Positions 6,531 through 32,973 of a stretch of DNA of 35,162 nucleotides are shown here, in pieces. The notes below the pieces were generated by a model. The model was given only the letters and a program-made list of their open reading frames with translations. It ran no database searches and was not told where the DNA came from. The stretch is from Chromera velia. Its lineage: Eukaryota; Sar; Chromeraceae. Both the position numbers and the translations under genes were made by a program. Position 1 is the first letter of the stretch. Each line of letters starts with the position of its first letter. Where the stretch lies: positions 3,085 to 38,246 of the forward strand of contig JAHBMJ010000913.1 of the NCBI GenBank assembly GCA_018398765.1, read 5' to 3'.

Positions 6531-9500
6531 CCTGTCTATTCGCAAGACTGCCCGGCCGGTTGTGGCTCTTCTCTTCTCACCATTGAACACACTCGACTGG
6601 ACGAACGGATGGGTGCATGGGTGCATGCATGCAGGTGCAAAGGAGAGGTCCTGAAGGACGCCGACACAATTCCCGGCTTGGTCCTGGGGGACCTGTGGAT
6701 GAGGGAAGCTTACGACACCGTCTCCTCATCCTGGAAGAGTGAGCACAGTCCCGAGGATACCTCCAACAGCGAGGAGGGGAAAGCGACGGTGAGGTATCCG
6801 AAGATGGCAGTGAAGGAGGGGGACCGGGAGTCATCCAAGAAGAGGAGGGTAGAGATTCTGCCCCACGCCCCCTTCTCCTTTCATATGGTCGTCCTGCAGG
6901 TCAGCCGGCAGATCGAGAGAGAATCTTGCATGCATGCGTGATACTATCTGCTCTTCAACATGATCCGGCAGATCGAGAGAGAATCTTGCATGCATGCGTG
7001 ATACTATCTGCTCTTCAACATGATCCGGCAGATCGAGAGAGAATCTTGCATGCATGCGTGATACTGTCTGCTCTTCAACATGATCCGGCAGATCGAGAGA
7101 GAATCTTGCATGCATGCGTGATACTATCTGCTCTTCAACATGATCCGGCAGATCGAGAGAGAATCTTGCATGCATGCGTGTTACTATCTGCTCTTCAACA
7201 TGATTTGTGTGATCTGTGTGGGTGGAAAGAAAATTCCTTTCAGGATCAGAGGAGCTGGCTGGGTGCATGTACGCAGAAGGCTTTTTCGACTCACCGTGCA
7301 TGTGTATCCGTCACCCAGCGCTGGATATTTTGGCAGATGGGGCCGCAGAAGTTTTTGGATATTTTTGGATATTTTTGCAGATGGGGCCGCAGGAGTTTTT
7401 GGATATTTTTGGATATTTTTGCAGATGGGGCCGCAGGAGTTGAAGTTGCAAACGTCCCTGAGAGCCCTGTGGGAGGACCGCAAGAGGGTGTGGAAGGAGG
7501 CAGTCGCCAAAGGAGAAGGCGACCCGGAACCCCCCAAACCCCCTCCAGGGCTTGTGAAGAGCCTCCATGAGTCCTTCACCATCACCCAGACGGACGTCCA
7601 AGTAAGTAGCTTTTTTCTCGATCGGCAATTCTGTGTGCATGCATGAATATCACCAGTTTTTCTCTGATTTCTTCTTCCGATGGTGAAGTGATGTGCTTTC
7701 TTCTTCCATTTCTTCTTCTTCCATTTAAAAAAAAAAAAAGTTTTTCCCTGATTTCTTCTTCCGATGGTGAAGCGATGTGCGAGTGTCTCCGAGAAATGAA
7801 AGCTTCGAGAGCAAGGAAGAAAGACTTGTATTTAATTGTGCAAACCATCAAAACCACAAGAAGCAAGATTTGTTTCTTGTGTTCTTCTTTCTGTGTGCAG
7901 ATGGTGTACTACAAGGCGTACCAGAAAATTGCAGACAGCGTCCGCTGCAAGTATAAATCTTAGAAATTTCCAAATGACTCACCGCCCTCTCTCTCCTCGC
8001 CTGTCCATGCGGCCTCCTTCTTTGATTTGATTCATTCGGCCATGCACGCACCCTCAGGGGCCTCCCTCAAGCTTTGTTTGTTTGTTTGTTTCTTTGTATG
8101 AAGTGCAAGAGAAGAGAAGAGAAAAAGTGCATGCCAAGAGAGAGCATCAACAGCTGCTGGACGGAACTGGACTCAAAAGGCATGAATGCAGGGACTCCGG
8201 CCGGACCCCTTTTTTTTTGCATCGGGGCCTCCATCCCTGTCTGTCTGTGGTTATGTTATGTTCCTCTGTTGCATTTCTTCCTTTTCTGTCCGCCGCCACT
8301 AAAGGGATCAAAGAGAGAGCCCTTGAAGATGATGCAGCCGAAAACACATGCACACACACAAGAAAGAATTGTGCTCTGCTCGTCCCTCCCTCCTCCTCGT
8401 CCTCCCGTTTCTCCTTTAATTTTCTAGCTGTCAACTCTTCATTCTCTTTTCTTTCCGCTCATGAATCAAGCCTCGATCGATCTAGCTCCATTCTGCAACA
8501 GACAGTTACCCTCCCCTGGTGCCCTCCCATCCACCGCCTACCTACCTGCCTGCACGCAGATCGACGGCGTAATGGAGAAGATCACCCCGACCGCGGCCCT
8601 TCTGCCGGTCTTCAACGTCATCTACGCCCTCATCCGGTGGGTGCATGCATTTTCTTTCATACAGAATTCTTTCATACAGAATTCTTTCATACAGAAAGAA
8701 AATGCATCTACGCCCTCATCCGGTGGGGGGGGGGGTGCGTGCTTGGCTTCCTGCGTGTCTAGCTGTTTGCGTATGTGTGTGTGTGTGTGTGTGTGTGTGT
8801 ATACATATTAATACAAGCCTCGATCCACCGAGAGAGACGCCTTCAAGAGCTGTCAGTGGAAGGACACGCACGGGATTGGATGCTGCGATGCGAAGTTCCT
8901 TTTTTTGTCTTTTTCTGGAATTAATTGATTGATTGATTGATTGTCTTCCTGTTCTCTGCAGATTCTAAGACTTTGGTATGGCTGTGGTCGATCAGACATC
9001 TTCGTTCCTGTCCTTTTGTGCATGTGAACTTGTTTACTGAATGAATGAATGAATTCGGTAGGGCCTGCAACATACGTACAGACGGGCTAGCTGACTGGGT
9101 AGACGGAGAAGAGATGCCGCTGTCAATTTTTCACCCAGATACGTTCGCGCAAGAAGGCTCCCCCGTCTCTTCCCTCTCTCCCTCTCTCTATTTACCAATC
9201 TATTCACTCATTTATCTGTCCATCCATCCATCCATCCCCTTGGTCGATCTGTGCAGAAAGGGCAAAATGGACTACAGCACCGTTGCAGATGTGGCGTTTA
9301 CCAGTCAGTCAGTGAGTCCATCTTCTCTTATGCTTTCTCTGGACAGGTCTGACTGGACTAGACGATGAACTTGCCATTGATTACCGACATGACATGTTGA
9401 AATTTCATCAAGTGTTTCCATGCTCACTTTCCTGCTCAGCCTGCATTCATGCGTTAAAAAAGAAGTCCGACTTTCAGCAACAAGTTTTACTTCGCAAGAA

Positions 9501-10531
9501 TTATTCAATCTTTCCTGCCCGCCTGCCTGCCTGCCTGCCTACCTCCCTGCCTCCCTGCCTCCCTGCCTCCCTGCCTGCTTGCCTGCCTCCCTCCCTGCCT
9601 GCCTGCCTGCGCCCCCCATGCATCCATCCGCCCACCTGCATGCAGCCCACGGAAGTAAGGGCCGCATCGAGGATCTCGCCTCGATGAAGGAGGCCAACTG
9701 TCTGACCTTCGCGCAGCTCGTGTACGACTTCTACAAGGTCTTCTACAAGGAATGCTTCTTCAAGGACTTCCCCAAAAAAGAACATATGATGAGGAACGGA
9801 AAACCAAGCCTGCCGTTGAGGGGGGGGTCTCCCAGAACCCGTACAGCGTCAGTGAGTGAGTGAGTGAGTGTGTGTGTGTGTGTGCGCGCGCGTGGTACTT
9901 CACTTGCTTTGGTGTGTGAGTACAGCAACTAGGCTCCGAGTCGCGGTTCAAAAGGATGAGTCAGAAAATGGCATGCAGCTAGACCAAAGCAGGCAGGCAG
10001 TCCCGCATCGATCTTAGTTCTGCTGCATGCGTATTGGAGTCCCGGGTGCATGCGTGGTGATATCTGCGCGTCTCTCTCTTATGCCTGTGGGTCCTTCTCA
10101 TTCCCTCCCGACTATAAGCTTCCCTCCCTGCAGAAAGTCAAGTCTGTTTCCTCTTCTCGTAGCTGCTTCAATCTTTTTCACACATCCTCGGGACGGCATG
10201 TGCGTCTCTTTTGTCTGCCCGGCCTCTTGACGGGTTCCGGGCAATCCAGTTGTATCATGCACTCAACAATTTCTATTTCATGACTTGACTGAAAGGTCAA
10301 ACAGCTCCAAATGCTTATTTGTTTGGTGATTCGAATTCTTGACTCAATCCTTCCTTCTCTCGATTCAGAAGACTAGTGAATGTCTTAATCCGTGCATGCA
10401 TGCGTGCCTGCAGATACGCAAATTGCGTCGTGGAGCAGTTTGACGCCGCCCAGAACAAAATTCACAGGATTTTGCGGTCAGAACAGAAAGCAGGGGAAAT
10501 CCAAAGCCTTCCTGACTGGCTAGCCTCGTGA
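4271..10531 (+). CDS. Uncharacterised membrane-anchored protein, 12 exons
   Basis: Proposed exons: 4271-4858, 4934-5020, 5303-5482, 6188-6327, 6635-6899, 7425-7601, 7901-7939, 8560-8636, 8835-8894, 9257-9303, 9646-9847 and 10414-10531 (TGA), about 659 aa with all phases consistent. I do not recognise a family. The start at 4271 gives a signal-peptide-like or anchor helix (residues ~6-23). A second hydrophobic segment lies at ~69-92 and a third in exon 2 (TLCFLFIACLSGLF). The rest is mostly soluble and mixed-charge, with a Trp-rich stretch in exon 4 and an aromatic run FYKVFYKECFFKDF in exon 11. Exons 1-6 and 10-12 are well supported by phase. The 7901 exon needs a GTCCGC donor (GTATAA at 7951 would break phase), and the 8835-8894 exon has a weak GTTCCT donor. 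The exon 3 donor lies inside (CAGT)n, so several donor positions are possible and only some keep frame. Confidence 0.6.
5091..5164. repeat. (CT)n(GT)n microsatellite in intron
   Basis: A pure CT run passes into a pure GT run within intron 2 of the 4271-10531 gene, just downstream of the GTGAGT donor at 5021. Confidence 0.9.
5477..5513. repeat. (CAGT)9 tetranucleotide run at a splice donor
   Basis: Nine CAGT units begin exactly at the end of exon 3. Each unit recreates the donor GTCAGT, offset by 4 bp, so the exon end is ambiguous. Using the GTCAGT at 5483 keeps phase 0 with the next exon. Confidence 0.85.
6905..7204. repeat. Five exact 60 bp tandem repeats in an intron
   Basis: Five head-to-tail copies with a 60 bp period, each starting ccggcagatcgagagagaat and containing TGCATGCATGCG. 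Only isolated substitutions are visible (for example near 7066 and 7182). The array begins right after the donor of the exon ending at 6899. Confidence 0.95.
7337..7440. repeat. 44 bp tandem repeat duplicating a 3' splice site and exon start
   Basis: The unit atggggccgcag(a/g)ag plus two GGATATTTTT and gcag occurs so that CAG/ATGGGGCCGCAG appears three times, with CAG ending at 7336, 7380 and 7424. Only the third copy leads into the open exon (MGPQELKLQTSL) in phase. The first two are decoy acceptors. Confidence 0.9.
8619..8727. repeat. Duplicated exon end and donor, with a TTTCATACAGAATTC triplication between
   Basis: The 23 bp catctacgccctcatccggtggg is identical at 8619-8641 (true exon end, donor GTGGGT) and 8705-8727. 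Between them tttcatacagaattc is repeated, about three copies at 8655-8697. Confidence 0.9.
9514..9612. repeat. Degenerate (CCTG/CCTC)n tract before an acceptor
   Basis: A long pyrimidine-rich CCTGCCTC-type repeat lies in the intron upstream of the exon starting at 9646. It may serve as an extended polypyrimidine tract. Confidence 0.8.
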
Positions 10532-11354
10532 GAGAGAGAGCAAAGATAGAGAAAGAACAAAAGAAACAACACACGCGGCTTCTAATTCCCGTACGTGTTA
10601 GAAACTGTGTCAAAAACTGGGTTGCAAGATCTAGCTAGCTATCGGATTTAAACGTTTTATACAAGGATGTGTTATAGTCAGAATCATGAGGTTCCTAAAA
10701 AATAAAACATGTATGACTATTTGTCACTCAAGACTAATGCATGCTTGTGTCTCTTATGTCTTTTATAAATTTTTGTGCCAGTGTGTTTCTATAAAGAAAA
10801 AATCCTTTTGGTTACTTATGTACGTTTATGAGTGCGTTTTCTTTCCAAAAACTTAATTTCTGTTTAGAAATGAATATATCTTTTTGTATGTATACATGTC
10901 GGCACTTCCAGTGAACATCGGTTTTGTTATAGTAGGTTTTACCGCCATAATTTGAACGCAATACTATACTAAAATGAATTATAATATAAGTCCATATAAA
11001 AAAAGCCGGTTGATGACGCTTTTTAAACCATTTTTTGTGTATTTCATAACAAATATACAGTTAAAACAATTTTTATGAGATTGAACTAGATTCAAGTATA
11101 TTGAAATATTCAGGCCCCTTATGATGATAGTGACCAGGAGTGAACACTAATTGACTGAATAGGCCAAAAGCTTTTAGTCGACAAAGACGATGCATATTGA
11201 ATTTCTTGTTTCTCATTCACTTTCTTTCGAAGGAGCAAAGACAAAAGAGTGGGTTGAAACTAACTTCTCTAATTGAGAGCGCTCGATTTCTTGCCAGACG
11301 TTTGAACCGATGACTGAGGGTTTTGTTTGAACGCACGAATTCGCTCCGCGAGAT
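10532..11354. other. AT-rich intergenic segment downstream of the 4271-10531 gene
   Basis: From about 10620 the sequence becomes clearly AT-rich, with no ORF or exon-like frame that I can support. Several AATAAA-like and ATAAA motifs (for example near 10700) could act in 3'-end formation. No repeat family is obvious. Confidence 0.5.
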
Positions 11355-11358
11355 CCGC

Positions 11359-11380
11359 ATACCCTGGACATTAATTTGTG
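11359..11380 (+). repeat. Left terminal inverted repeat
   Basis: A 22 bp perfect complement of 12706-12727, starting ATACCCTGG and ending TTTGTG. Confidence 0.88.
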
Positions 11381-11704
11381 GGCCCTTTTCTGGGCCACGC
11401 CGCCGGAGCGCCGCGTATTGATGCCCGTCTACCGATACAGATGCAACATGCATGCGATGAAGATTGCATGCATACATCTGATCATTATATGCCGTCTCCA
11501 CTGAGGTCTTTTTTTCACGCTCCTGTTATGATCTCTACTGTCAGTGAGAGAGGTCAAGAAGAAAAATGAAAGTCCAAACCCCTATCTGGAAGACTTATCC
11601 GGCAGATCCCGAGCTTTAGAGCCCTAAAGGAGCCAATTTTTTTCTTTTGCGGCCGCCCTGAAGCTGGGCAGGGGGGATTGCGGCTTCGCTGCCTATAAGC
11701 AACA

Positions 11705-12613
11705 ATGTGCACACTTCCTCCTTTGTTAATTGAGATCTGGAGGTCGATTCAAAAGGAAGCAGAGGCTGTGTGGATAGACAGAGCACTTCTTGTGCAAGTG
11801 TTAGAAGAGAGAAATGAGAAGTTTGCTTGTAGGAAAGTGAAAGCGGGAGACTTTGTGCCGTATGTCATTACAGGCACCACTGACGAGGGGACTTTCAGAG
11901 TGTGGGCAGGGTTGCAGAAAGCGGGCCCCCGAGATGGGGAGAAGAGGGCTTACACGATTGCTGAGCATCGCGTGTGGGGGATTCCCGGCCGACACAATTT
12001 TAAATTTCATTTCTCTGCAGAATGGGGGACAGATTGGGTAAAATGCATGAAGAGAGAGACAGTCCGTCTCTATGTGGTGGATGTTGTTAAGACAGAGGAA
12101 GCAGGGTTGAAGGCAGAAACGGATTGGGCACTTGGATTGACAGCTGCTCTCTGGGGTGAGGGAATAGTGACCAAGGCACGGCCTCAGTTAAAGCATACGC
12201 CAGTGAAAGGATCTTTTTTCAGCAAGTTTCACAGCGGGGAGACAGAACTACACACAGTGGAAACCCTTCTTCGAGTCTGGGGTCCTGAATGGAGGGATCT
12301 CTTGATAGATGAGCAAGGTGTGTGGATGGGAGAGCTGAAACTCTTATGGTTGCACGTAAAAGCCTTGTGTTTTAAATGCGAAGGCCCCCTTAGAGTCTGC
12401 GGGGGAGTCCGGAGATGCAACAGAATGCTTCCTTCCGCTGAGACTGAACCTTCCAGGCCGGCTCATCGCCCTGTCACGCAGTGTGAAATCTGTCGTGCAA
12501 ACCCCGCACACCCCCCTTGCTTTGGAGATGAGCGGTGCACCCAGGGAGAGAACAGAGAAATCAGACTTTGTGTCACAAATTGCAAGGAAAGAAAAGTTTC
12601 ATGTCAATGTTAA
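11705..12613 (+). CDS. Intronless 302-aa ORF of the TIR element, Cys-rich C-terminus
   Basis: This is the only long uninterrupted ORF in the window without introns, and it lies centrally between the inverted repeats. I do not recognise the family. Residues 1-215 are Trp-rich and mixed alpha/beta in appearance (RVWGPEWRDLL at ~190-200). The C-terminal 80 residues carry 12 cysteines in C-x2-C pairs (222/225, 260/263) plus single Cys at 232, 238, 272, 278, 289, 293, 300 and 302, suggesting zinc binding. No DDE/D catalytic triad or RNase H-like pattern is evident by eye, so it may be an accessory or captured gene, or a truncated transposase. The start ATG at 11705 follows a TATA-like tgcctataagcaaca. 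TAA is at 12611-12613. It could be a captured host gene, a DNA-binding protein of the element, or a relict. Confidence 0.6.
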   Translation: MCTLPPLLIEIWRSIQKEAEAVWIDRALLVQVLEERNEKFACRKVKAGDFVPYVITGTTDEGTFRVWAGLQKAGPRDGEKRAYTIAEHRVWGIPGRHNFKFHFSAEWGTDWVKCMKRETVRLYVVDVVKTEEAGLKAETDWALGLTAALWGEGIVTKARPQLKHTPVKGSFFSKFHSGETELHTVETLLRVWGPEWRDLLIDEQGVWMGELKLLWLHVKALCFKCEGPLRVCGGVRRCNRMLPSAETEPSRPAHRPVTQCEICRANPAHPPCFGDERCTQGENREIRLCVTNCKERKVSCQC

Positions 12614-12705
12614 ATGACAGTAAATGATTTGAAAAGTAAATTTTCTTCAGGACTAGATTTCTTTAAAGTTGAATGCATCTATAATTTATTTTTTATAAAA
12701 ATGCA

Positions 12706-12727
12706 CACAAATTAATGTCCAGGGTAT
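12706..12727 (-). repeat. Right terminal inverted repeat
   Basis: A 22 bp perfect complement of 11359-11380, reading cacaaattaatgtccagggt then at. It is followed by the CCGC direct repeat. Confidence 0.88.
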
Positions 12728-12731
12728 CCGC

Positions 12732-13331
12732 CTCGCCTTTCATGCAACAGAAGAAAATTATGCAACACATGCATGCATTGCATGCCTGCACAAGAAGGTG
12801 TCATTTCTCTGGCTGTCAAGCAGCTCGTGTGGACAGGCAGTAAAAAGAATCAATCACTCATGCATCTTCTCTGAGAGGACCTCGTTGTGCTTGTAATTGG
12901 TGAAAGGTTTGAGCCTCCTTCGTGCTCTACAGGTGACGGAACAACAGTTCACCCTGAACAACGCGCAACGGCAATTCGCATGCACTGGACTGTATATACG
13001 TATGCGTATATGTGAATGCGACTGACAAAACGAGCAGAGGGACTCGGATACCTCGGTCTCACGCATCATTGCGTGTCTTGAGTTGTTCCGACGATGTTTC
13101 CATCCGTCTATGACCCGTTTCTCTCTTCAAGCGTTCAGCATCAGCGTGTTTGGGGACTCATCTCTGTCAGCGAGTTATCTGCCCGAACGGCCATTTGCGA
13201 TCACCATAAATAGACAGGCAGGTACCCGCAATCAGAAGCAGATCAAAAGAGTGTCTCTCTGAGCCCCCATCTCTGCTCTTCACTCTCCTTATCCACCCCC
13301 ACACCAGTGAACACGTATATCTAACCAGCTC
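12732..13331. promoter_or_regulatory. Upstream region of the 13332-21683 gene
   Basis: About 600 bp between the mobile element and the next start codon. TGCATGCA-type motifs at 12768-12787 and an alternating tatatacgtatgcgtatat stretch at 12990-13010 are visible. No core promoter can be fixed. No ORF is supported. Confidence 0.3.
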
Positions 13332-16300
13332 ATGAAGCGTGGGAGCCTTGTCTCGTCCTCCCCCTTCTCCGGGGCTTCCAAGTTTCCCCCCACCTTCTCC
13401 AGCTCCCGCACCGGTCTGGGGGCAGATGGCATTAAATCGGCCCAGTCCCAGGCCCTCCAGCAGCGCCGCCGGAGTTCCCTCCTCCACTCCAACGCAAAAA
13501 GCCTCGACGACCTCGCCAAGGCCATCGAAGACGTTCCGGAGCTCGGCAGAAGAAAGGTGGGGTTATATATATGTACAAATACATGCCTCTATGCGTGCAT
13601 TTTTACGAGTACGTGTGGAGCAGATGAATGCACAGACGGAATGAACAAACGGGTTTCCTCACCTCTGACATGTGTGTGTGTGTGTATGTGTACGTCTGAA
13701 ATACGTACACGTGTGAATGCACTTCAGGTCACAGAGGAGGACCTGAAGCAGCAGGCCCGTCTCCTCACCCCTGTCGGGTACTCCGTCCACTCTCGGAGTT
13801 GCGTTGCCCTCCCCACCTGCCCCCCGTCTGCCCAGGGGGGCCTCAGACAGTCAAGAGGACCCCTCAGGCCCCAGAGCTTTCGGACAGATGTGGTCTCGTC
13901 ATCGCAAGGGAGGGCAGGGGGGCAGTCAGCAGAGGCGGAGACGGAGACCGTGGGTGTCTCTATGCTTATGAGAGGGGCCTCGAGGGAAAGAGGGGGGACC
14001 GGGCCGACGTCCACCCCCTTCCGGGATCTCTCCACGAGAGGGGACCCCTCCTCGAGACTAGGCACGGCTGTGTCCATGACTAGGCCTGGTCTGCCCTCCC
14101 AGGGGTCCAGTAGACCTAGAACCAGATTCGTACTACCCTCTCTAGACCCCCACCCCTGGGGAGGGCCCTCTGCCTTCTCTCGTTCCTCCACTCAGCAGGG
14201 GGGGGCAGGGAGGAGGGGAGTGCATAGGAGGGAGGGTCTATTTGAGAGTCCATCGGGTGGGGAGTCGAGGGAGAGGGTGGCCTTGCCGTCTCCTGGGGGT
14301 AGACAGTCGGGAAGGAGACGGACGTGGGAGTTGCAGGATGCCTCCAGGAGGGCAAAGGAAATTTCGGGTCTGGAGGCTGTGGACGGTCTGGCTGCACGGA
14401 GGGCTCAGGAGAAGGAGCTGTCGAATGAATACCAATTCCTTAAGAGACAACCGACGTCCACTCTGCATTCCCTTCTTCTTAGCTCGGAAGAAAAAGAGAA
14501 GGAGACGCTGACAGGATCTTCGGAGACGGCATCGAGTAGCTCGGCCCATGGGGGGGGGATAGAGGGGGTAGGGAATTCGAGTTTGAGAAGGCATGGGAAG
14601 GAGAGTCCGTCGCAGTCGCCTGCGTCCAGGCAGAAGGAGAGGGAGGCCGACAGGTGGTTGGAACTTGTTCGAAATTTGCGTGCAAAGAATGAAAAGCAGA
14701 AAAGAAATGCCGAGAAAAGGAGAAAGAAGCAACAGAAGAGTTTGTACAAAAGCCTTCCGAAGCCCAGTGAGGTGGGTTTTGACCTGACCCTCGCTGCCCG
14801 TTTTGAGAATTCCCGCATTGCTGCTCTAGACGATCAAGTGGGAACAGAAATCCAAAGAAAGAGCAGAATAGACAGAGTGAGAGCGGGGGGTGCAGCGGAC
14901 GAATCGTTGGAGTTCCGAGAGACCCAAAGTGCAGTTGTGACATCATTAGAGCGGGCAGAAAAGGCCGTGGAGAGCATGGACGAGGCGTTCAGATATCCCG
15001 AAATTTCATGGGGATTTGAAGACTTGCTGGAGGGGATCCCGACTCGAAGAGGATCCCAACTGGACGTCGAGGACTCGGGACAGTCAGGAGGGGCAGGGGA
15101 GGGGTCGCCTTTCGGATCGAAGAGGAGAGGGAGTGAGCAGACTGTGTTGGATGCAGCCAGCCGGGTGGCATTGAAGATCAAAAACTTCCGGGAACAGGCC
15201 GAGCTAGATCCCCACATGGACCCGGAGGCCTGGAACAAAAGCATTGACAGCATCTTGCCGAGAGACAGGCCTGTGCCGACACATCAACTGGAGGGCTCAA
15301 AAGATCTGGTCAGCTTCTCAAGGGAGGGCATGAACCTAGTTGGTCTTGTTGTTGTTGGGATTGTGTTTTGTTTCGTTGTATGATGTTTCGATAGGGACCT
15401 GAGGTTGGTTTCTTGTTCGGCTGAAGTGCTCAGTGGGGGGGATTGTGTATAGTGAACGTGTTGATCATCATGTTTGCTTGTTTGTTGTTCAGACCCAGAA
15501 CAAAGAAAAAGAAGAAAAATATCGGTCGCACAGAACGAAACTTAACAGAGCGATTCTGGAGGACAGCGGAAGGACCGACTTTATTGATTCATTGGTCGAT
15601 CGATGAACTCTTGAACGAACAGAAGAGGACTCACATTTTGTCATATGCATCTATCTATTTGAAAGACAAATCTTGGAGGGAAAGGAAGGAAACCAAAAAC
15701 AAAATTTATTGGACGAAAATCTCCCGCAGACGAGGGACGCACGTGTCGCACCGACAGCAAATGCAGAGAGGATTGTTGACTTGAACAAACTTCGAATGCG
15801 TCTGTTCTTCCCGGGTCGGTCGGTGGGTCCATCGGTCGGTTGGGTTCTTTTCATCTGATGGATTTTTTGAAATCAGAGACTTTCTTGTTTTCGCTTCTGT
15901 CTCTGTCTCTGTCTGTTTTTTCAATGTGGTTGTTCCTCTCATTGCCTTACTTGTCTCCTGGCTTTCCTTTTTTCTGGTCAGTTACATCTTTTGGTCGCTT
16001 TCTCTCTTTTTGGAGTCCCTATTCCCTTTTCTACTTGGTCCGTTTTCTTTTTTTCTGTTCTTTTATTTTCTCTTCTTGTCAATCCCCTTTCCTTTCCGTG
16101 TGCTTTTGTTCTCTCTCCAAATCATTGTCTCTCATGATGCTCTGGTTTCTTTTGGCATCCTTTCGATACACCCACTGCATCAAAAGAATAGGAAAACACG
16201 AGGGTTTCTCAAAATGAGGATAAGATCATGTATCAGGATCTGATTCTGGCTGCTCGCTCTCCCTCCCTCCTCATGTACTGTGCAGGTCTGGGTGCGACGA

Positions 16301-18500: not shown

Positions 18501-21500
18501 GCGCGCGTGTGTGTGTGTGTGTGTGTGTGGAAGTGAGTGAGTGAGTGTGCGTCTGGGGGTGCGATGATGGGCTCTGAAAGAGGACATCCATCCATGAATG
18601 AAACTGATTTTTTCACATGAGGACTGACCGGGCTAGCTCACCTGTTGGTCCGTACGCCTGATATCAGTTCCCTTGCCTGCGTGTGTCGTTGTGTATTCAC
18701 GCCTTTGTGTATGTGTTTTGATCTTGTTCTGCTCAACTGACCATGGACTGCAGGTGAGCACCGACTGGGTGGGTGCAGAAGACTTTGACTCCGATCTCTA
18801 CTCTGACGTGTACAGTGACGAGGAGGAAGAGGAAGATGAGGGGGAGTTGGAAGCCCCAGGGCAGAGGAGCAGAAGCAGGGCATTGAGGGGAAAGGGTTCA
18901 CGGCAGAGCGTGTGGGACCGGATTGTGAAGAACAAAAAGTCCAACTACTGCTTTGCATGTGAGGTCAGTAGATCGTATGGAGCGCTCCCTGAAAAGAATT
19001 CTGCATGAAAATGAATCCATAGAAGAACAAAAGGTCCAACTACTGCTTTGCATGCGAGGTCAGTAGATGGGCGGGATCGGGGGCGGTACCTTTCTTCGCT
19101 GGGTCGCCCTTCCTTTTTTGAATTGGTATCGCTAATATCACATTGAGCATGCAGGTTCCGTTCTGACAGCTAGTGGGATAAAAAAAAGAGTACAGAGAGA
19201 TAAACATAAAGAGACAGACAAACGAGACACCCCTCTCTTACTGCCTTAATTCTTTCAGGCAACAAATCCCGTGGATGTGCTCGTTCTGTCTCGGGGGTTC
19301 GACTCCGTGTTCTTCAATCCTCTGGCCTGGCTGAAGACTCTCATGATGGCCTCCTTTCTGAGTAAACTGTCGAAGGTGTGGGAGGAGGAGTGTAGAAGGC
19401 GGGACCTCGTCAGGTTCTTTCAATTGCAGGTGCGTTCGTGGGTCTGTTCAGTGGGTGGTCGGTCAGGTGTATGGCCGAAAGGGGGGGCTCCTCTTGCTTT
19501 TCTCGCATCTCTGTTTGTTTGTCTAAATTCGCAGGCTGTGAATCCGTCAGGCGATATCCCTCCAGAAAAAGGGCTGGTGACAAGATGAAAAAGATTCAGT
19601 GATAACGCTACAGACGTTGATTTGACATTCGCATTTTGGGTCAGCTTTTTCGCGTACCGGCATCGATCAATTCTCCTTGCTCTTTGACGCGTAAGATGTC
19701 CAACAAACTGAAGAATGAATATTCTGCATGCATGCGCATTTCGTCGATTCGTCTCTGCATGCAGGACCAACGTCTGCGGACAACGATGGACCCCCGTCTC
19801 CGTTTTCTTGCGAACATGAGGAAGTATCTTCTCCTTGTTGCCACCCGTTTCCTCTCCCGTCTCTCCAGAATCAGAAGGAGGGGGCAGGCCGCAGAGCTGC
19901 TCCTTCGATTCCTTCGCAATGCCACTCTCGACGACGCAATGCAGAAACGAGTGCGGAAGCTGATCGAAAAAGGAAACGTCATCAAGAGAGCTCTGTGGAC
20001 CTGGGTGCAGAGAAAGAAAACGATTCTGGACTACGCAAGTCAATGTTGGCACGCGGTGGAACTCCATTTGTTTCGATCCGACATGGCAGAAAAGTTGAAT
20101 GCTGCTCTGAATAAAAAGAGACAGGAGGAGAGAGATCGTAAAGCAGCAGCTCGGAGGGCAGCGAAGCACGCAGCTGCATTGGACGACCAGAAGAAGAAAG
20201 AGAAGGAGGCAGCCACCATGAAGCGAACCCCAAAGCTTCTCCTCTCACGTGCCATTGGTACTATTCAGGAGAGGAAGGTTGCTTTGCCAGAAGGATGCTC
20301 TCCCCTCGTCGGAGCTGCCAACGCTCTTCTGATGAAGGTCAAAAAAGGCTCTACCCCCAGCTCAGCATCCCACCATCCGAACACAAACGCAGGCACAGGA
20401 GCCACCACCAGAGGATCCCAAGTAGGCCACCAGAGACCTTCCTTCTCCCTCATTTCAAAGAGAAGGGGAGACAGGGGAGCGCTCTCACCCACAGCCTCCC
20501 CCCCCATATCGGGAGACTTTGGGGGTCCGACGTACTCCGCCCACGGGGACCCCCTCTCCCCCTCTCACCACAACGCCCCCCCCCCCCCNCCCCCCCCCCA
20601 CCAGGGTGGCTTCATCACCTGCCCCAACTGACGAAGTACAGAAACACCACACCCTCAAAGTACCTCCAGGGCCTCTCTAAATTCGGAAAGGCATTCCAGA
20701 CGTACAAACTCTTCGAGGGAGAAAAGGCAATCCCACCAGACGTCAGTCAGTCAGACAAGGTTCACTTTCCTCCTCTGCTAACTTCAAATAAAATCATTTT
20801 TCGTCTTCCCTCATCAGCCCGCCCCCATTTAATTGTGTTGACTCAAGTATGTGAAATGCCTTGCTGTTCTCTGCTGTTCCCTCGCAATTTGAGTTTCTCT
20901 GTCAAGGCCAGACATGCAGGCGGGTTTTGTTTTTTTTCCTCTATCCACCATCCACGCGCGTAAGATCTTTTCCGGTTCTTCTCTGATCGCCTCTTTTGGT
21001 TTCTCTCGACCAAAAAAACGAATGAAGTGGGCAGGCACCGGTCTGCTCCCCTGAGTAGATATCTCTCTCCGCATGTGTGAGCGAGCAAGAGGGGGGCGGG
21101 GGGAACGAAACATAAACAAACACACAAACGAACCGATCAAGAGATGGACAGAGATAGACAGACACATGCAGAAGCTGGAATTAAGGAAGAACGGCCGGCT
21201 GTACGTGTGGATGGCCATATACGGAAATGAATGCAGGTCAGAAAATACTACCTCGAGGAGCTTTGGCACTCTTTGGTTTTGAAGTTCGGTGAGGGTCTGG
21301 AGCAGCACTGGCTGGAGGTTTCCCAGTACAAAACTGACGAGAAGTCGATTGAGAATTTCCTTGAGGGGTTCGGCACAACCATCAAGAAGGCATTTGGACC
21401 AAGGGGGGCGCCGTTGATGAAGCCGAAGCCGAGGCCGAGGATGATCATCGCGTCCGAACAACAGATGTGCGATATGGTTGCAGACGCCCATATTTACTGG

Positions 21501-23292: not shown

Positions 23293-26200
23293 TCACGTGT
23301 CAACGCAGCGGAAGCTCCGCTCCTCATTCACAGCCCCCCCCATCTCCTCATCAAAAAAGCCAAAAGACGAGGGGCTCTCATCACCTACCCTCTCATGGAC
23401 ACCCACAGCTCCTACAAGATTCCCACTCCCTCTAAGTTCCCCCTCCTCAGAAGGACCCCCAACGGACCTATGACACACACCCTTTGCTCCTCCTTCTCCT
23501 TTACTCGTGGCGGCACAAGTTGCAGGAGGAGACGGATAGACGACGAGAGGGGGACATTCATCATCGTCAAAAAAGAGACGGGGGGCCTCTGTGTGGCCGC
23601 ACCTTTCCTTCTCCCTCAGCCGCTCCTCAACAGACCCCTGCAGGATGCTTTGACACTTCCCATCAATTGCCTTCTTCTCTCTTCCTTGTCCACTCCCAGA
23701 CACCGGAAGGGAAGGAGGGCTCGTCTGCCCTTCTTCACTTGGAACGCTGAACTTTTCCAGAGGAGAGTCGCCCTCTTTTTCTTCTTCTTGCGGCGCAGTG
23801 CACCACCCTGTCTTGACGGTGGGGCCGCTCTCTGCTGCTTCGGTTTTCTGCCCTCCCTCCTCCTTGCCGCCATTACGGCTGTTCCCACTTCCCCTCTCCC
23901 TCTGCCTCTGCCTCCTCTTCTCCTTCCTCCATTTGGAGAACCACAAGGCGCCCGTGTAGGCGACCTTGATGGTGTTAGTCACAATTGACACGGCCTGCAT
24001 TCAATCAATCAATGCAGCAATCGACACGGCCTGCATTCAATCAATGCAGCAATCGAAAAGAAAAGGAAAGAAGAGGAACAATTAAGCGCAGAGGTATTCA
24101 AAATGTACGGATGATTCATAAATCACGACTTGCGCAGGCGATGCTAGTGGAAAGGGAACTGACAATACTATCATACACACAGCAATGAAAAAGGGGTACA
24201 CAAAAACACACACGCACATGCACTCTTCATGATCCCTCCTTACGCAGAGAGGCGGAAGGAAGGAAGGAAGGAAGGGCGGAAGGAAGGAAGGAAGGAAGGG
24301 CGAAAGAGTGATCGAATGAATGCCGTCAAACGAGGGGTATGATCGCGCACAAACCCTGCAGGCTGATCTGACTATCACCACGCCAACTCATGAGGCAAAC
24401 AAACAAGTGTCTCTCTCGAGTCAGAAAATCAATCTCCTGCCAAGTCTTCTCAATCTCCTCATAATCAATGACACGTGACACACAGACAGAGAGACTGACC
24501 ATCAGCCTCCCCGTGTACCTTTCAAAAAGAAAGAATGTACACATACACATACACATACACAGACATACAGACATACATCATATACATACACAAAAGAACA
24601 AACATACAGACAGACAGACTGACCATCAGCCTCCCCGTAAATTTTTCCAGCACCTCCCTCAGATTCGCATTTGCATCTGCACTCTTCTCTGGATGGTGGG
24701 AGGACAGAGAGACGGCAGCGAAGAGAGCAAGGCCCAACACCCCCAGGTCAGTCAGGGTGAGGAAGAACCGGGTGCACGCGAAAGAGGACCCAAAAGCCGT
24801 CTCCCACCCTGCATCCTCAACCTTCGCGTGCTGTAACTGGAACGCAATCAGCAACCCGACTTGCCCGAGGGCAAGGAGGAGAATGGCTAAGCCGATAGGA
24901 AACGCGCAGTTCTGAGGCATGGGGACGCTGCTGCCCCCAAAGAAGAGAAAGGTGCCGAGACAGACGTCTGAGTAGAAGGAGATAAAAATGAACAGGGTAG
25001 AGAATAAAAGCGCAATACGACGGTAGTCTGCGTAGTCGGCCGTGGGTCTCCGGCAACAAAGGACGGTAGACACGGCAGTCGTGATTCTTTCCCCCAATGA
25101 AGCTAGTCTCTCTGGGATCGTGCGCTGGCTTTTGATTTTTCGTCCTCTTCCTCCTCTCTTTTCGGTCTCTCTTTTTCTTTCCCTCCTCCCCCTGCTGCTG
25201 TCATTCTCTTCTCCTCCCTCTTCACTTTCTCTCCTCAAACTGTCCCCTCTTTCTCTTTCCGTTCCCTCCTTCTCCGACTCCTCACTTGAACCCTTTCCAG
25301 ACCAACCCCCCCAACTCGACCGAAGAGTTTCAGGTCGAAAGGAGGAGACGGAACATCTGTGCTCACAGACCTCGAAGGAGTGGGTGACACCCCACCTGTC
25401 CGTGACTGAGAAGGACGAAGGACTGTCTCCCTCTCCCCCCCCATGCACAGAAGGCGCCCCTCCAGACTCAAGGTCGAGTTCGTGAGGTTCTGGGTGGGCG
25501 TGTGTGTTGGGGGCACACGGGGAGACGGGAGGAGACGCACAGTTGGAGACGGAGACGGCGGAATGCACAGATGGTCTCTTGATAGACTCCAAACTCGAGT
25601 CTCTTCTCAAAGTCCCCTCCGTCGTCTCTCCCCCCTCCGTGTTTCCCTCAACCTCAACGTTACAGCGAGTTTCGTTCTCTCCCTCTGCCTTTGCAACTGC
25701 CTGCATGGCACTCGAAGACACTGAGGGAAACGCAGGGCTGTGCGCACGTTTGTGGTCTTCTGCAGGGACTCTGACTGGAAGGTGCAGGCCTGAGAAATCA
25801 ACGCTGCCGTTACAGCAGCCAAGGTTGCCGTCTCTCCCTCTCCTGTCTGCCTTAGCCCCCCCCCTCACCCTCTTGAGATATTGGAGGGCTTCTGCGCAGT
25901 CAAAGCGTCTGGGCACTGCCCTAGGGACGTAGCAGATGACAATGAGCATACAGCAGAACATGCACAGGGGGAAGAAACCCAGGGAAGAGAAGGGGCCGAG
26001 GAGGGCGTGGAAGACCGGGATCCTGTGCGACGTGTCTCTGTACCCCATGGCCAGCTCCAGTCCCTTTAGGATGGACGTGTGGGCTGTGGGGACGAACAGT
26101 TGCAGCATCATGAGCACTCTGCCTGTGCGAGAGCGCAAAGGGAAGAGCATAGTGGCAACGAGGAGAAAAATAAATCCGGGCATGAGGATAATGTTCACCG

Positions 26201-26444
26201 CGTCCAAAACCTTCACGGGAGTGTAGGTAGCGTGGGTGATTAGGACGAGAAGGACGGAAGGCAGATAGAAGATGAGCACCCTGGAGGGGGTGTCGTGGAG
26301 GTACAGATGGAAGCGGCAGGGCATCTGGAGTTTCAGAAACATGAGCCTGGAGGGATCCGCGAGAGTGCCCTCGGACTGGGAGCTTGGAGAAGGAGACGGC
26401 CGTCTCATTGTCAGGCTGTCAGACTGACTGCTGCTCTCGACCAA
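23293..26444 (-). CDS. Polytopic membrane protein with long Ser/Glu-rich loop, two exons
   Basis: Exon 1 is 26444-24624 (607 codons, ends at ATG/GTCAGT, phase 0). Exon 2 is 23994-23293 (233 codons plus TGA). Together they give about 840 aa. Four hydrophobic segments lie near the N-terminus (roughly residues 56-72, 83-103, 109-128 and 147-173). A hydrophilic Ser/Glu/Arg-rich loop of nearly 300 residues follows, then three more segments (about 470-500, 512-534 and 557-579), and exon 2 begins with a possible eighth (AVSIVTNTIKVAYTGALWF). The tail is basic, then Ser/Gly/Glu-rich, and probably cytosolic. I do not recognise the family; the layout is compatible with a receptor-like or transporter protein. 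The start at 26444 precedes a Ser-rich leader, and no upstream in-frame exon was found. A candidate extra exon at about 24444-24380 (LTRERHLFVCLMSW) does not fit phase. Confidence 0.68.
23984..24056. repeat. Duplicated acceptor region of the minus-strand gene
   Basis: The sequence cgacacggcctgcattcaat plus caatgcagcaatcg appears twice in tandem (about 23986-24023 and 24022-24055). On the minus strand this duplicates the acceptor GAATGCAG/GCCGTGTC of exon 2. The copy nearer the exon is the one used in the model. Confidence 0.88.
24250..24302. repeat. (GGAA)n tract
   Basis: GGAAGGAAGG runs interrupted by gggcgga, within the intron of the minus-strand gene; on the coding strand this is a long pyrimidine tract. 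Confidence 0.85.
24492..24638. repeat. Duplicated exon end plus donor, minus strand
   Basis: A 23 bp identical block (agactgaccatcagcctccc plus cgt) lies at 24616-24638, where on the minus strand it forms the end of exon 1 and its GTCAGT donor. It recurs at 24492-24514 within the intron. A simple CATACA repeat lies between the copies. Confidence 0.9.
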
Positions 26445-27023
26445 AAAGACGAAGCTTCCGATGTCTTAGAAACGTCGAATTCGGGCTGGGATAAAGATGA
26501 GACGCAACTATGTATATTAATATATTACTCGTCCAGTCAGATCGATGAGTTTGCCTCGCTGGCTGCCGTTCGACTGGCCCATGTCTCGAAGAAAGGAGGC
26601 GCGTATTCGCGAAAGAAGTCTTGGGAGCCGGGGCCGAGCTGCATGAATTCGCTCTTCGAACGCGCGCCGTGCATGGGCATGCATCCATGCATGCGTGCGT
26701 CAGTGAACTGCTGCGGCCATTAATTGACGCACGCCTGGGGCGCCATTGACGCACGCCTGGGGCGGCATTGACGGGGCGGCATTGACGCACGCGCGCCTGC
26801 ATGGGGGCGTTAGGTCGAGACCTCATGCAGTTTTGTCAAAGGCTGCATGAGACCTTTGTGTTGGCCTGCAGTGCATGACTCGATTCAGCTGGCCTAGCTC
26901 ATGCAGATCGATCCAAGCCGCATGCAGGTGCATGACATTTCGACTGAAGGTTGAGGTACTCGGCTGGATCGCTGTTGGCTGCATGACCGTTTGTTCATCT
27001 CTATTCGGGGATTTTAGTTAATT

Positions 27024-27059
<36 letters not shown>

Positions 27060-27062
27060 TGC
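26445..27062. promoter_or_regulatory. Divergent promoter region with TGCATG clusters
   Basis: This 618 bp gap separates start codons of the minus-strand membrane protein gene and the plus-strand DHRS1-type gene. It holds a dense set of TGCATG/CATGCA motifs (26671-26700, 26798-26803, 26822-26851, 26920-26940). It also has an inverted repeat CTCATGCAG...CTGCATGAG at 26822-26851, tandem copies of ttgacgcacgcctggggcg at 26723-26765, and a (CT)n run at 27027-27055 just before the ATG. In Apicomplexa TGCATG is a known AP2-factor site; use here is inferred. Confidence 0.5.
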
Positions 27063-29810
27063 ATGATGATTCGCTTCCTCTGCACTATTTTCCTGCTTTT
27101 AAGCTTTGTCGATTATACGCTCGGTTTTGTCCCCTTTTCTTCCGGTCCTGCTGAACCCCTGTGGCTCGGGAACTCATTCCGTCTCCTTTCACCGAGAGGA
27201 GACGGGAAGGCAAGCCGTCTCCTTCTGAGCATGGCCGCCGGATCTGAACGCAAAGTCGCAGTGGTGACTGGAGGTCAGATTATACAGGGGAATATGGTTT
27301 AGGGGGTAAGGGGAGAAGAGAGTATGCATGGGACGGTAGCCAGCTAGGGCCGGGGAAGAGGGACACAGGAGACGGTAGCCAGCCAAGGCCGGGGAAGAGG
27401 GACACAGGGGACGGTAGCCAGCTAGGGCCGGGGAAGAGGGACACACAGGGGACGGTAGCCAGCCAGGGCCGGGGAAGAGGGACACAGGGGACGGTAGCCA
27501 CCGGGGCCGGGGAAGAGGGACACAGGGGACGGATGCCCAAGAGTGACGGAGACGGAGACAGAGGCAGGGGAGACGGAGGTGGAAAGCCCCGCCATGCACT
27601 CCCGCCCTCCACCGTTGTAGAGTTTAGCGCAAGCACGTGTGTCGTACTCCCGATCTTAGCAAGCTCCTCTTCCCTCCTCTCCTTTTTGCTTCTGGGTGAC
27701 CGTTCTTCTTCTTTTTTCCTCCGTTTCCGTCTCTTCTCTTGGACCATTCCCTTCCGTCCCTTCGCACCACCCCAATGTCATGTGCTTTGCTTGATCGGCT
27801 ACTTCTCTTTTTGCCTGTTTGCAGCAAGTAGAGGAATCGGTGCAGGGATCGCGAAGGTCGGCGAGCGTGCCCAGAGAAGAGAAGGTAGAATGAAGAGCTA
27901 GCTGATAGATAAAAGAGTACAGAATGGAGAACCGCACACACCACCCACCCGGGTACCTGGAGATTCACTTAGAGTGCTAAGAGGATGACGGGACATGAAT
28001 CATAAAGATGCACAAATTGCATCAAATGCGTGAATGTTGTGCGGAGGCGAATGCACAGGCGCGCAGGAAAGGAGAGAGAGGGGGGGGGGCGGAGAGAGGG
28101 GGGGGGAGAGACGAACGAGACGGACAGACGAACTGGAAAGAGAGGGAGAGAGCCACAGGATTGCCGCAAAAGAAAAATCAAAACCATTCGATCGTTCCTT
28201 CACTTGAGCGACCAATCACGTTTCTGTGTCCTCTATGTGTGAGGGAGGAGCAAAAGACAAGAGAGAAAGGCCAGGGAAAACGCACGCACCTCTTCTGTTT
28301 CTCTTCCCGTGTGCATTTTGTTTCTCCTCTCTCGCTTATTCGCTTCATTCTCCTGCTCAGTCTAACTCAAGATTTTCTCTTCTCTACAAACGCCTGCAAC
28401 ACAACCGCTCTCTGTGTCCCCCCCTCTGCCCTACAGGCTCTCGGAGAAAATGGCTACAAAGTCTACATCACAGGGCGGACAGAGAAGAGCGCTCCCGCCC
28501 CCAAGACCAAAGAGAAGGGCCCCAGTCTGGAGGTCACAGCTGCGTACATCCGAGAGGCGGGGGGTGAGGCCGTGCCTGTGCGGGTGGACCATTCGAAGGA
28601 CAGCGAGATCGTGAAGCTCTTCCAAAGGGTCGACAGGGAAAATGGGGTCAGTCCGGTGATCCATCCGTCTTTCTTATCCGTTTTTAATTGTCGGTTTAGA
28701 AAGAATTTGGTTTCCTCTTTCCTTTCGTCATGGACCTCTGCAGAAAAGCATTTTTGTTCACAGCAGAAAGGCCACCCTTGTGGATCAATGGCTGATGTCA
28801 TCACAGAGACGTCAAACAAAAACCTCTCAACACGAGAAAGTGTGGGATTCGACGCTCGTCAGCCTCGACAGAGAAAGAGCGCAAAAAGATCGTATCTCTT
28901 CGACATTTCATTCAGACAATTCCTACACTCCTTAATTCTGCAGGGCCGACTCGACCTCCTGGTCAACAACGCCTTCGCTGCTGTTCCTAATGTCGGGGGC
29001 ACGATGGGGAAGCCCTTCTGGGAGAAGGGAGGGGGGTCACATTGGGATGCCGTCAATCTGGTCGGGCTGAGGGCCCACTACGTTGCCTCGACCTGTGCTG
29101 CACCTCTGATGACAAGACGACGGTCCGTATTTCTGTCTGTCTGTCTGTCTGCTTCTTTCTGTTTGTAGCTCCCCATCTTCACCCCTGTATCATTATCTTT
29201 TTTTGTCTTCTGTTTCTCCTCAATTCATCTCTCTGTTTAACTTTCTGCTAAAATCACATTCCTTTCTCACGGAACTCAAAGGAGTGCAAGTCGCCCGTCT
29301 TTTTCTTTCAAAGAATGAATAATTAATGCAGGTCTGAATGAATGCAAAGAACACGTATGAATACCCTCATGCAGGTCTGGTTTGATCGTGAATGTGTCCT
29401 CTTGGGGCGGGATGTCGTATATCTTCGACGTCGCGTATGGGATTGGAAAGGCGGGGATGGACAGAATGGCGGCAGACATGTCGGTGGAACTCCGGTGGGT
29501 CTCTTTCTCTTTCTTTCTCTGCCTGCCTTTCTGCTCTTTCTTCTTGGTCGGTTCTGTCTCTGTTCCTGTGGGCGTACATGGCTTTATCTATTGTTTCGTC
29601 TGTATTTTTGAAGACCCGGGAGAAGGGGAACGGTCGGGAGCAGAAGAGATGAGTGAAAGGTTTTGTGCAGGAAAGAAGACGCTCTTCTTTCTTTTGCTTG
29701 GTGCCTTTTGTCAAAGTCTGCATGCATGTGCCTCCTCTTCAGTCGGTCTCTCCTCTCAGTCCATACCCCCTGTGCACGCACGGGCGTGTGTGAGTGACTG
29801 TCTGTGAATG

Positions 29811-29842
<32 letters not shown>

Positions 29843-30479
29843 CATAAGTCTGAGTGACTGTACACGGGAATGTCATTCGTTTGCTTTCTGTTGTCGTTTG
29901 TTATGCAGACCTTACGAAGTTTCAGCCATCTCACTATGGCCTGGAATCGTCTCCACTGAGGTTTGTCTTTGTCTGCCTCTTCTGCTTGTCTGAGATCATA
30001 TCCACAAACAGATCGACGACACGCGTACGCTCTTTTTATAGGAAGACAAACAGACAGACGATGACGAAGGGGGGGAAGGGGGTGTCGCTGGCAGCCGGGG
30101 GGCACGAAGAGAAACGAGGTAGGAAGGAGAGACATACACATACATCATATACATACACAATATACATATACATATACATCATATACATATACATATAGGA
30201 GAGTATACACATACAGAAGGGAAACGAGGTAGGAAGGAGAGAAGGCAGGACGAAAGCCCCGAGATCGATCACTTATGCATGCCAGCCGATTGTGAATGAA
30301 TGGAGGAATGAATGGATTGATGCTTCCGAAAGGTCACTTGTGGGACCTGCCGTGTCTCGGGTTTTTCAATTGACTCACTCTCTTCCTCCCTGCAGACTGA
30401 ATAAATAAAGGAACCCACCCACTGGTCTCTCCATCTCATCCGATCCTTCCGAGGCTTCTTCTCTCCATTTGACTCTGCG

Positions 30480-30515
<36 letters not shown>

Positions 30516-32973
30516 CCTTCTTCTCTCTGTTTGCTCTTTCTTTGTGTTCCTGTGAGCAGGCAATGCTTGCAATGGCATCGTCTGACAATCCAGACGAGAG
30601 GGGACTGATGAAAGCTTCTTTCGGTCCGTCTGCTCCCCCTTCTGTGCTTCTCTTGTGATCTGATGGGACATTATTCCACTCTTCTCATACGTACAGTGTG
30701 GGGGTCCTGTCGACATGTCTGTGCATGCATGTGTCTTCGAGTGAGCATGTACGGGTCCGGGTGCCTGGAAGGGGCTTGAAATGAAGAAGTGCGCGGATGA
30801 AGAATGGACTTTGACCAATGGACACCTGCACATGGGAGCGAGAGGAACAGAGGGAGGAAACCAATTCTCTCCCTTGCTTCAACTTTCTCTTAGGGCACAC
30901 ACCTTTTTTCATTTCCGAAGCAGAGAGAGATACGCCCTGACCTCGTGAATGAAATCTTGAAAACACCAACGACGCACTGGACAAAGACATTCCTTCATTC
31001 ATTCATTTCCTTCTCAATCTGCCCTCCCGTCCTGAAAGAAAAAAGAATTGATGGATCATTTCTCGTCTTCCCTTCCTCCTTCCATGCAGTGGACCTCTAC
31101 GGAGCGGAGACGCCCCTCTACGTCGGGAGGACACTCGCGGCGATGGCTGGGCTCTCCCAATCGGAACTTATCAAGAGGTCAGAATATTTGGATATTTTTG
31201 GATATTTTTCCACAAAAATATCCAGAGGCGATGGCTGGGCTCTCCCAATCGGAACTTCTAAAGAGGTCAGACAGCACAGAGGAGGTCCCAACGCCTCACT
31301 GTCCCTCGAACACACAGAGAAAGATTAACAATGTGGGGAGTAGTCATGACGGGGGGCAGGGACCCTTCAGATCTTTCAGTGGAAGGGAAGAGTGCGCGGA
31401 GAATTAAAAGAGTCAGATGGGGATCGAGACAGAAGGGGAAAAGGAAGGAAGCTGCCAGAGGTATTGTATTAATATGTTCGTTGAGTGAAAAAGAGAGAGT
31501 CTGTATGCGTCTATGCGTGCGTGCAAACAAACTCGTCCCTTCACATCCCTTCGAACTCTCTCTCTACACCTTCTTCCCTCCCTTTTCTCTGCAGAAGCGG
31601 TACAGTGCAGCTCTGCGGGGAACTCGGACAAGAGTTTGGCGTGACGGACGAGGAAGGGAACTCCCCCGCGTCCTTTCGGTCCCTCAGGTGGATTCTCCCT
31701 AAGGTTCGTCCCTCCCTCGTTGGTATGCCTGTCTTGATGCATGCATGTCTGCAGTCTGCGTGTATGTATATATGCATGTAGGGGTACTTATTCGTTTGTA
31801 TGTGCCCTTGCACAGCAAGGACAGGTAGAGGCTCGACAGTCCCTCTCTCTGCCTGCCTTGCTGGTGGGTGCTCCCTTTTGAAGAGCTCCTGCAAAGATTG
31901 ATTGGGGTGCAGTGAGGAGAGTGAAAACCTAACACACCTCCTCAATCGCTTCAATGTAAACTTGATCCCTTCATGAGGTCTCGTGAAGAACAGCCACATG
32001 AGTGAAAGAAAAACATTCCAGACTGCATTCGTGTCGGCAAGCGCTGGCCCGTTTGACTGAGTGTGTGCCTGAGTGTCCGTTTGTCGATCTGTCTGTTTGA
32101 GTCACTCTCTCTCACTCTCTCTCTCTCTCTGTGAATGTGTGTGTGTATGTGTGTCCGTGTGTGCGTGTGCGTGTGTACGTACAGGGCGTCCCCTTCCTCC
32201 GAGGAAAAGAAAAATCAATTCCGGACATCCGAATTCCATGGAATGTCAGTCAGTCCATCGACCGGTCTTTCGCACACAGAAGGGCAACACACACACACAC
32301 ACACAGACGTACAGGTGCCTTCCCTGTTGAATCCCATTGGATTCTGTCGCCCCCCCCTTCCTCTCTCTCTCTCCCCCTCCTGCCCGCGATCTTTGCGGTC
32401 CGTTCCCTTCTTTGAATTGCATGTCTGTCTGTCTACTTGCCGGTATCGTTTTTGTCACACGTCTGTGAGTCATTTACGTATGTTCTCGGTGAGGCACTGA
32501 GCTCAAAAGGCGGGGGGGTGCTTTAATCGTATTTGTCTTTTTTGTCAGTGAGGAGACAGAGGGGGAGATGCAGAGCAGTGGCAGATGGACCGACGGATTG
32601 TTTATTGCTCACGGATCGAGTGATTGCATAGGATTGGCGTACCACGGGGACAAGGAAGCCGTCTTGTGAATGTCGTGAGTGTGTGGCGATTCTGACGAAG
32701 CACTCGATCATTCGTTTGTACGGTCCTGTTCTTAAACTGGGAAGGTTCCCATGCAGCACAACGAACACCGGCCCTGTCTTCACGTCTCTTTGTGCAAGTG
32801 TTCATCGGTGCGTTTGTGTTCCCGTGATTTCTCTTTAATTTTCCGCATACGTGTATAATCCTGATGCATGCACGCAGGCGATCAAATCTGGAGTGGCGTC
32901 TCCGTTGAGGGATTCCAATGAGTTGAACTACCGCATTGCGTCAAATAGGATTATAGGAGGAGAAAACAAATAG
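27063..32973 (+). CDS. DHRS1: DHRS1-type short-chain dehydrogenase/reductase, 11 exons, possible plastid leader
   Basis: Exons: 27063-27273, 27825-27856, 28437-28646, 28944-29122, 29375-29494, 29909-29960, 30560-30623, 31090-31177, 31595-31703, 32185-32244 and 32878-32973 (TAG). This gives 406 aa with every phase matching. Residues 69-76 form the Rossmann motif TGASRGIG. VYITGR and then VDRENGGRLDLLVNNAF carry the family NNA motif (159-161). The catalytic Ser is 219/220 (IVNVSSWGG), and Tyr232-Lys236 form YGIGK. LWPGIVSTE follows, as in DHRS1. The segments FWEKGGGSHWD and NLVGLRAHY also match DHRS1 rather than generic SDRs. The first 56 residues are extra: a hydrophobic signal-like helix (FLCTIFLLLSF) and then FVPFSS after a likely cleavage site, resembling a bipartite plastid leader with Phe at +1. 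A second ATG at 27231 in strong context (gagcATGGCC) starts exactly where animal DHRS1 starts. Expected activity is NAD(P)H-dependent carbonyl reduction; the substrate is unknown. Confidence 0.9.
27332..27540. repeat. 39 bp minisatellite in the first intron of the DHRS1-type gene
   Basis: Units starting gacggtagcc at 27332, 27371, 27410, 27451 and 27490, with a degenerate one at 27528 (period 38-41 bp). Each contains ggccggggaagagggacaca. Confidence 0.93.
29808..29843. repeat. (GT)n microsatellite
   Basis: A GT run in the intron before the exon at 29909. A similar GT run is at 30484-30514 in the next intron. Confidence 0.9.
31139..31271. repeat. Duplicated exon end plus donor in the DHRS1-type gene (45 bp)
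   Basis: Segment 31139-31183 (ggcgatggctgggctctccc to gtcaga) recurs at 31227-31271 with two substitutions. It contains the last 39 bp of exon 8 and its GTCAGA donor. The spacer carries two GGATATTTTT motifs and an inverted AAAAATATCC. Confidence 0.93.

Follow-up and report, generated by a model that had tools for sequence, protein, structure and literature searches.

The window analysed here, a stretch of 35,162 nucleotides of Chromera velia DNA (contig JAHBMJ010000913.1, positions 3,085 to 38,246 of the forward strand), holds six short duplications that each span a splice junction. Two of them, at 8619 and 18928, are insertions of a very short palindromic element that is dispersed through the genome between long direct repeats, and splice junctions lie within these repeats in excess. 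We favour, with a probability of about 0.55, a reading in which a short inverted-repeat mobile element inserts with a bias towards exons and in which the survivors are those insertions that duplicate an intact splice site. The other four window cases may have captured other spacers likewise, or may be simple tandem duplications. All six duplications had been listed in a first-pass annotation and all are present, as follows.

8619..8641, plus strand: direct repeat copy 1, exon end CATCTACGCCCTCATCCG (to 8636) and donor GTGGG; junction score 16.7
8642..8704, unstranded: spacer, the palindromic element by way of which the family was discovered; hairpin z -4.18
8705..8727, plus strand: direct repeat copy 2, decoy donor within the intron; 23/23 identical to copy 1, step 86
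18927..18973, plus strand: direct repeat copy 1, exon end (to 18963) and donor GTCAGTAGAT
18974..19021, unstranded: spacer, divergent member of the palindromic family, now a poor hairpin
19022..19068, plus strand: direct repeat copy 2, decoy donor; 96% identity, step 95
27231..32274, plus strand: DHRS1-like SDR gene with ten in-frame exons; where the last one ends is arbitrary
31139..31183, plus strand: direct repeat copy 1, used donor (exon end 31177) of the SDR gene
31184..31226, unstranded: hairpin-forming spacer outside the palindromic family; hairpin z -4.86
31227..31271, plus strand: direct repeat copy 2, decoy donor, the use of which leads to a stop; 96% identity, step 88
24602..24638, minus strand: direct repeat copy, used donor of the minus-strand gene model
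24515..24601, unstranded: ACATAC-rich spacer; hairpin z -3.66
24478..24514, minus strand: direct repeat copy, decoy donor; 95% identity, step 124
23982..24009, minus strand: used acceptor copy of the minus-strand gene model, in the same intron as the 24602 donor
24018..24045, minus strand: decoy acceptor copy, ATTG-rich; 96% identity, step 36
7322..7441, plus strand: three copies (7322-7365, 7366-7409 and 7410-7441) at a 44-bp step over an acceptor (TTTTTGCAG|ATGGGGCCGCAGGAGTT), the last acceptor being at 7424

A search of the genome with 66 bases around the 8619/8705 spacer gave at least 59 matches (40 of 132 candidates scored). A 17-base core of the element has 827 exact matches in the 178-Mb genome, compared with none for the reversed control, and from the matches per fetched locus we estimate about 707 element loci; the exact core is absent from 5 of the 42 loci of the BLAST set. 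At 64 two-copy sites the element, taken as the spacer between the repeats, has a length of 39-120 nt (median 70.5) and a median folding energy of -19 kcal/mol, against -7 kcal/mol for letter-shuffled copies. Under the stricter of two patterns for the terminal arms, both were found at 41 of the 83 loci scanned, and their variable letter was complementary in 36 of those 41 (T-A 24, A-T 10, G-C 2). The 18974-19021 spacer aligns locally to the element of locus L079 with a score of 56 (60 shuffles reached at most 28) and is a divergent member of the family. Because the spacers at 8619 and 18928 are dispersed repeats, these two cases are insertions with long target duplications, and not the plain tandem duplications of the first-pass annotation. 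A 23-base segment taken from the element had no exact match in viral contigs, and our searches of open-licence PMC papers brought up no description of the family or of long duplications straddling one splice junction. At two places on other contigs element matches recur at regular intervals, every 119 bp at C3687:11272-12978 (15 rows) and every 83 bp at C3773:43011-43554 (7 rows); there the element appears to have multiplied into arrays together with its repeat.

Besides the window, 82 loci were collected: 7 and 35 from the own-genome match lists (one place on C2506 was left out) and 40 in contig order from the listed core matches, with four places already included skipped and clusters merged. 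A direct repeat surrounds the element in 79 of them. Removal of two loci, L092 and L111, and addition of the window copy gave the 78 sites analysed. The pair at L073 was mis-called; it was kept in the counts of repeat length, coding flanks, junction score, calibration and skew, and left out of those of element structure, fitted-model lengths, family alignment and decoy identity. At the sites measured the repeat has a median length of 35 bp (5-95% range 21-57, full range 16-68), with more than two copies at 13 of the 78 sites. The pair is identical at 36 of the 78, which are therefore recent. Among the decoy copies that were scored, 46 of 47 retain GTNNG or AG, in agreement with the earlier claim that a second intact splice site stays within the intron.

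The link between the duplications and splice junctions exceeds chance. In a model-free count, the repeats are enriched in the 5-letter words TGCAG (30 seen, 9.3 expected), GCAGG (25, 8.5), GGTCG (15, 3.8) and CAGGT (14, 4.7), which serve as acceptor and donor words in this genome. Two further words, TGCAT and GCATG, are over-represented as well, and may reflect acceptors or the element's own ends. Exactly one flank is coding at 41 of the 78 sites, compared with 23% in a genome sample, 32% in window genes and 35% in the same loci. Both flanks are coding at 3 of the 78, against 15%, 17% and 8% in the same three control sets. A joint splice and coding score above 10 was reached at 39 of the 78 sites (controls 16%, 20% and 19%), with Mann-Whitney p values of 9e-12, 6e-9 and 9e-8 that are rough because the controls are positions and not independent genes. 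When calibrated on hand-listed junctions, the share of the 78 sites with a junction inside the repeat is 0.50-0.58, whereas uniform insertion with purging of exon-interior hits predicts 0.167 (18 window introns, mean 365 bp). The excess asserted in the first-pass annotation is thus borne out. The calibration junctions are those on which the splice matrix was trained, so sensitivity looks high and the share is, if anything, low.

Individual genes served as further checks. At L050 the repeat's acceptor is followed by an exon that reads ALDYCHSQG..., with 65 of 65 residues aligning to CK2 alpha; since the exon starts at that acceptor, the copy adjoining its remainder should be the used one. Ten of 43 exon readings, chosen by eye, were compared with Pfam. 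Five scored above the family cut-off (L039, ABC1; L050, kinase; L090, EGF; L099, UCH; L074, DUF4215), three matched only weakly and two had no match at E 0.1. L012, fetched as a carrier of the GGATATTTTT pattern, holds three copies of a stretch made up of an acceptor and ∼ 44 exon bases, and its spacer is family-like. In a paralogue on contig C3501 this acceptor and the start of the exon occur only once, and the 451 bases read there contain no element. Within the window, the upstream donor of the SDR gene splices in frame. The protein spliced from nine exons (299 residues) can be aligned with human DHRS1 (2qq5) as far as residue 267, which lies four residues beyond the 31177 junction. In the minus-strand gene, joining of the donor copy at 24602-24638 to the acceptor copy at 23982 keeps an 828-residue frame, and two of the six duplications therefore lie at opposite ends of a single intron. 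For 7424, 8636 and 18963, the junctions were placed by reading frame and motif only. The hand-listed acceptors of the window end in CAG in 20 of 20 cases and the donors conform to GTNNG in 18 of 18; a G at +5 in every donor is unusually strict.

These data are consistent with a scheme in which very short, largely palindromic, high-copy elements would insert with a long and variable target duplication, perhaps ten times more readily in exons than in introns. Insertions into the interior of an exon would be removed by selection. Those that duplicate a whole splice site would persist, because one copy still splices the gene correctly, and the other copy and the element would join a longer intron, so that each survivor would leave a decoy splice site behind. 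We infer this exon bias and purifying selection from a model that makes an insertion b times as likely when its centre falls in an exon as when it falls in an intron, and that purges exon-interior hits. With b at 10-12 it returns a junction share of 0.51-0.55, a donor skew of 0.25-0.26 and an acceptor skew of 0.26-0.27. The intron part of the repeats, in relative terms, averages 0.24 at 19 donors, where exon bases are mostly the more numerous, and 0.35 at 29 acceptors; uniform placing would give ∼ 0.5. The model matches the donor skew; its acceptor values barely reach the interval of the observed acceptor skew (0.26-0.44). At least two donor calls (L007 and L071) are doubtful by eye.

Several observations weigh against this scheme. 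The acceptor skew is weaker than the fitted one, and the preference for exons is deduced and not seen directly. Direct repeats are lacking at 3 of the 82 loci (L095, L103 and L107), and in L092 and L111, which were dropped, the repeat pair lies inside the element. The CTTTC arm was recognized at both ends of only 36 of the 64 elements, and the 18974 spacer folds poorly (z -0.22). The coding model finds no coding flank at 34 of the 78 sites, and at some sites, L003, L040 and L052 among them, the reading by eye places a junction for which the score is low or favours another position. At a threshold of 10 the junction share is lower in the contig-order set (0.45, 35 sites) than in the BLAST set (0.56, 42 sites). 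The splice and coding models were trained on the window and a small sample, not on RNA-seq. Finally, four of the six window duplications show no connection with the family, and this hints at a wider process.

The first-pass annotation had proposed a mechanism tied to splice sites. No such tie is needed, since exon bias with purging reproduces the junction share and, roughly, the skew. It is nevertheless possible, if distinctly the less probable reading, that the insertion machinery itself recognizes splice junctions, for instance where a nascent transcript opens the DNA at a splice site, making junctions targets and not just refuges. The roughly three-fold surplus of junctions over the neutral expectation would follow, as would the position of the repeat at 14 of 19 donors, where it holds 5-12 intron bases and stops just beyond GTNNG; two off-junction copies (L008 and L043) are also near a junction by eye. 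However, the repeats keep no fixed distance from the junction and their ends show no strong base preference, and exon bias with selection accounts for nearly the same figures using a single parameter. Equally tentative is the idea that integration is coupled to splicing, such that a hairpin element cuts on both sides of exon-intron junctions during transcription and copies the 20-60 bp between the cuts, multiplying splice sites genome-wide.

The family could also be no more than the commonest filler captured, as a hairpin, during fill-in repair of staggered double-strand breaks or paired nicks. The variable repeat length and the hairpin-forming filler at 31184-31226, of which no other copy was found, fit such repair, and direct repeats in new Daphnia introns have been attributed to staggered breaks (PMC4202315). 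We consider it unlikely, because the presence of one palindrome, its arms matched, at hundreds of loci calls for a source that multiplies, and because duplications around unrelated filler are rare: the scan for duplications found six clusters in 20 contig-start stretches (∼ 152 kb readable of 200 kb, the rest N), of which by eye only one (L019:5429, spanning a TGCAG acceptor-like site) has a spacer not built of related repeats. No local duplication was found in six kinase-gene stretches (L033-L038, 9.1 kb). Chance tandem duplication or slippage near junctions, without any mobile element, suits the 23982/24018 pair and the copies at 7322-7441, both of which have short periods and low-complexity content and look like short tandem duplications. 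As a general account it is at odds with the shared spacer family and the junction excess, and we regard it as very improbable. Reverse splicing, also suggested in the first-pass annotation, or insertion of intron RNA deserves still less credence. It would explain the location at splice sites and nothing else, and it is contradicted by the structure of the copies: the element ends differ from intron ends, the junction-spanning repeats hold both exon and intron sequence, and in the gene models made the introns reach past the spacer.

The remaining window spacers were tried as repeat families and rejected. The 31184 spacer returned only itself from the own-genome search and has no similarity to the palindromic family. 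The 24515 spacer likewise found only itself in a search that skips simple repeats; its best match within the family is L083, which seems due to runs of ATAC. The GGATATTTTT spacer pattern of 7322-7441 occurs elsewhere in the genome only at 31187 and on one other contig, and as a 23-base pattern it has four exact genome matches, three of them inside the window. TTTGGATATTTTTGGATATTTTT (window 7354, 7398 and 31187) also has four genome occurrences, three in the window, in two genes 24 kb apart; these may possibly be copied filler. The scan of the window for duplications gave eleven clusters, the six junction cases and five tandem arrays.

6905, 26723, 27330, 27387 and 34945: tandem arrays from the window scan

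Two further pairs of lower complexity, 7655/7739 and 30111/30221, lie off junctions. The latter, identified by eye, is a 21-bp duplication (30111-30131 and 30221-30241) in an SDR intron around an ACATAC-rich spacer, whose likeness to L083 again seems due to runs of ATAC. Among the arrays, 6905-7204 comprises five near-identical 60-bp copies right after an apparent exon end, 27330-27532, within the SDR gene's first intron, has about five 39-bp copies, and the 89-bp repeat at 34945-35162 extends into the contig end. Positions 905-1187 and 2053-2430 carry arrays of ∼ 90-bp units (GACAGACA...CTATATGTTTCTTCTTCTTCTCCCTCC...), with a related stretch on another contig (L014:7520), and look like another dispersed repeat.

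Through insertions of this kind, mobile DNA can make introns longer and create alternative splice sites while leaving genes unbroken. If the sampled share holds, the genome would contain such natural cases by the several hundred, their repeats ranging from full identity down to ∼ 90%, and these would test how the spliceosome chooses between near-identical splice sites ∼ 100 nt apart. The family also provides a means to separate the site preference of insertion from the site of survival.

The element resembles miniature inverted-repeat transposable elements (MITEs), which are short, have terminal inverted repeats and no coding capacity, and occur in hundreds of copies; terminal inverted repeats are present in this family. 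MITE target duplications are 2-11 bp long and fixed in length for each family. A range of 10-15 bp is given in PMC7789003. In contrast to the short duplications of MITEs, those described here are long and variable (5-95% range 21-57 bp), which argues against a classical transposase. Short retroposons that move by target-primed reverse transcription, such as SINE (short interspersed element)-like elements, leave target duplications of variable length, as is seen here. No A-rich, simple-repeat or other common 3' tail was seen by eye in the 64 elements, and this absence argues against a typical retroposon; unlike in retroposons, the two ends of the element also tend to be the same inverted repeat. 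The direct repeats at intron borders reported in PMC11782384 pair both ends of an intron and measure 4-30 bp (mean 11.4), whereas here one border is duplicated and its copies flank an element.

Introner elements share with this family the dispersal of short, similar repeats in genes and an interplay with splice sites, and some introner families have inverted repeats and target duplications. Introners become new introns, with target repeats, where reported, of 3-9 bp in some families (PMC9860276) and of 3-5 nt for the Amoebophrya elements (PMC7789003); the median here is 35 bp. The junction sites of C. velia score as coding on one flank and as intron on the other, and the insertions do not appear to have become new introns: the L012 paralogue has the same acceptor without the element, and the CK2 alpha exon starts at an ordinary acceptor. 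Empty sites are open through both flanks in 5 of 78 cases; L073 is the mis-called pair and L065, L074, L099 and L108 hold a scored junction candidate (7.5-10.7), and hence none is a clear new intron. In contrast to the introners of those sources, the element described here lies within an existing intron, which it lengthens, between repeats of ∼ 35 bp.

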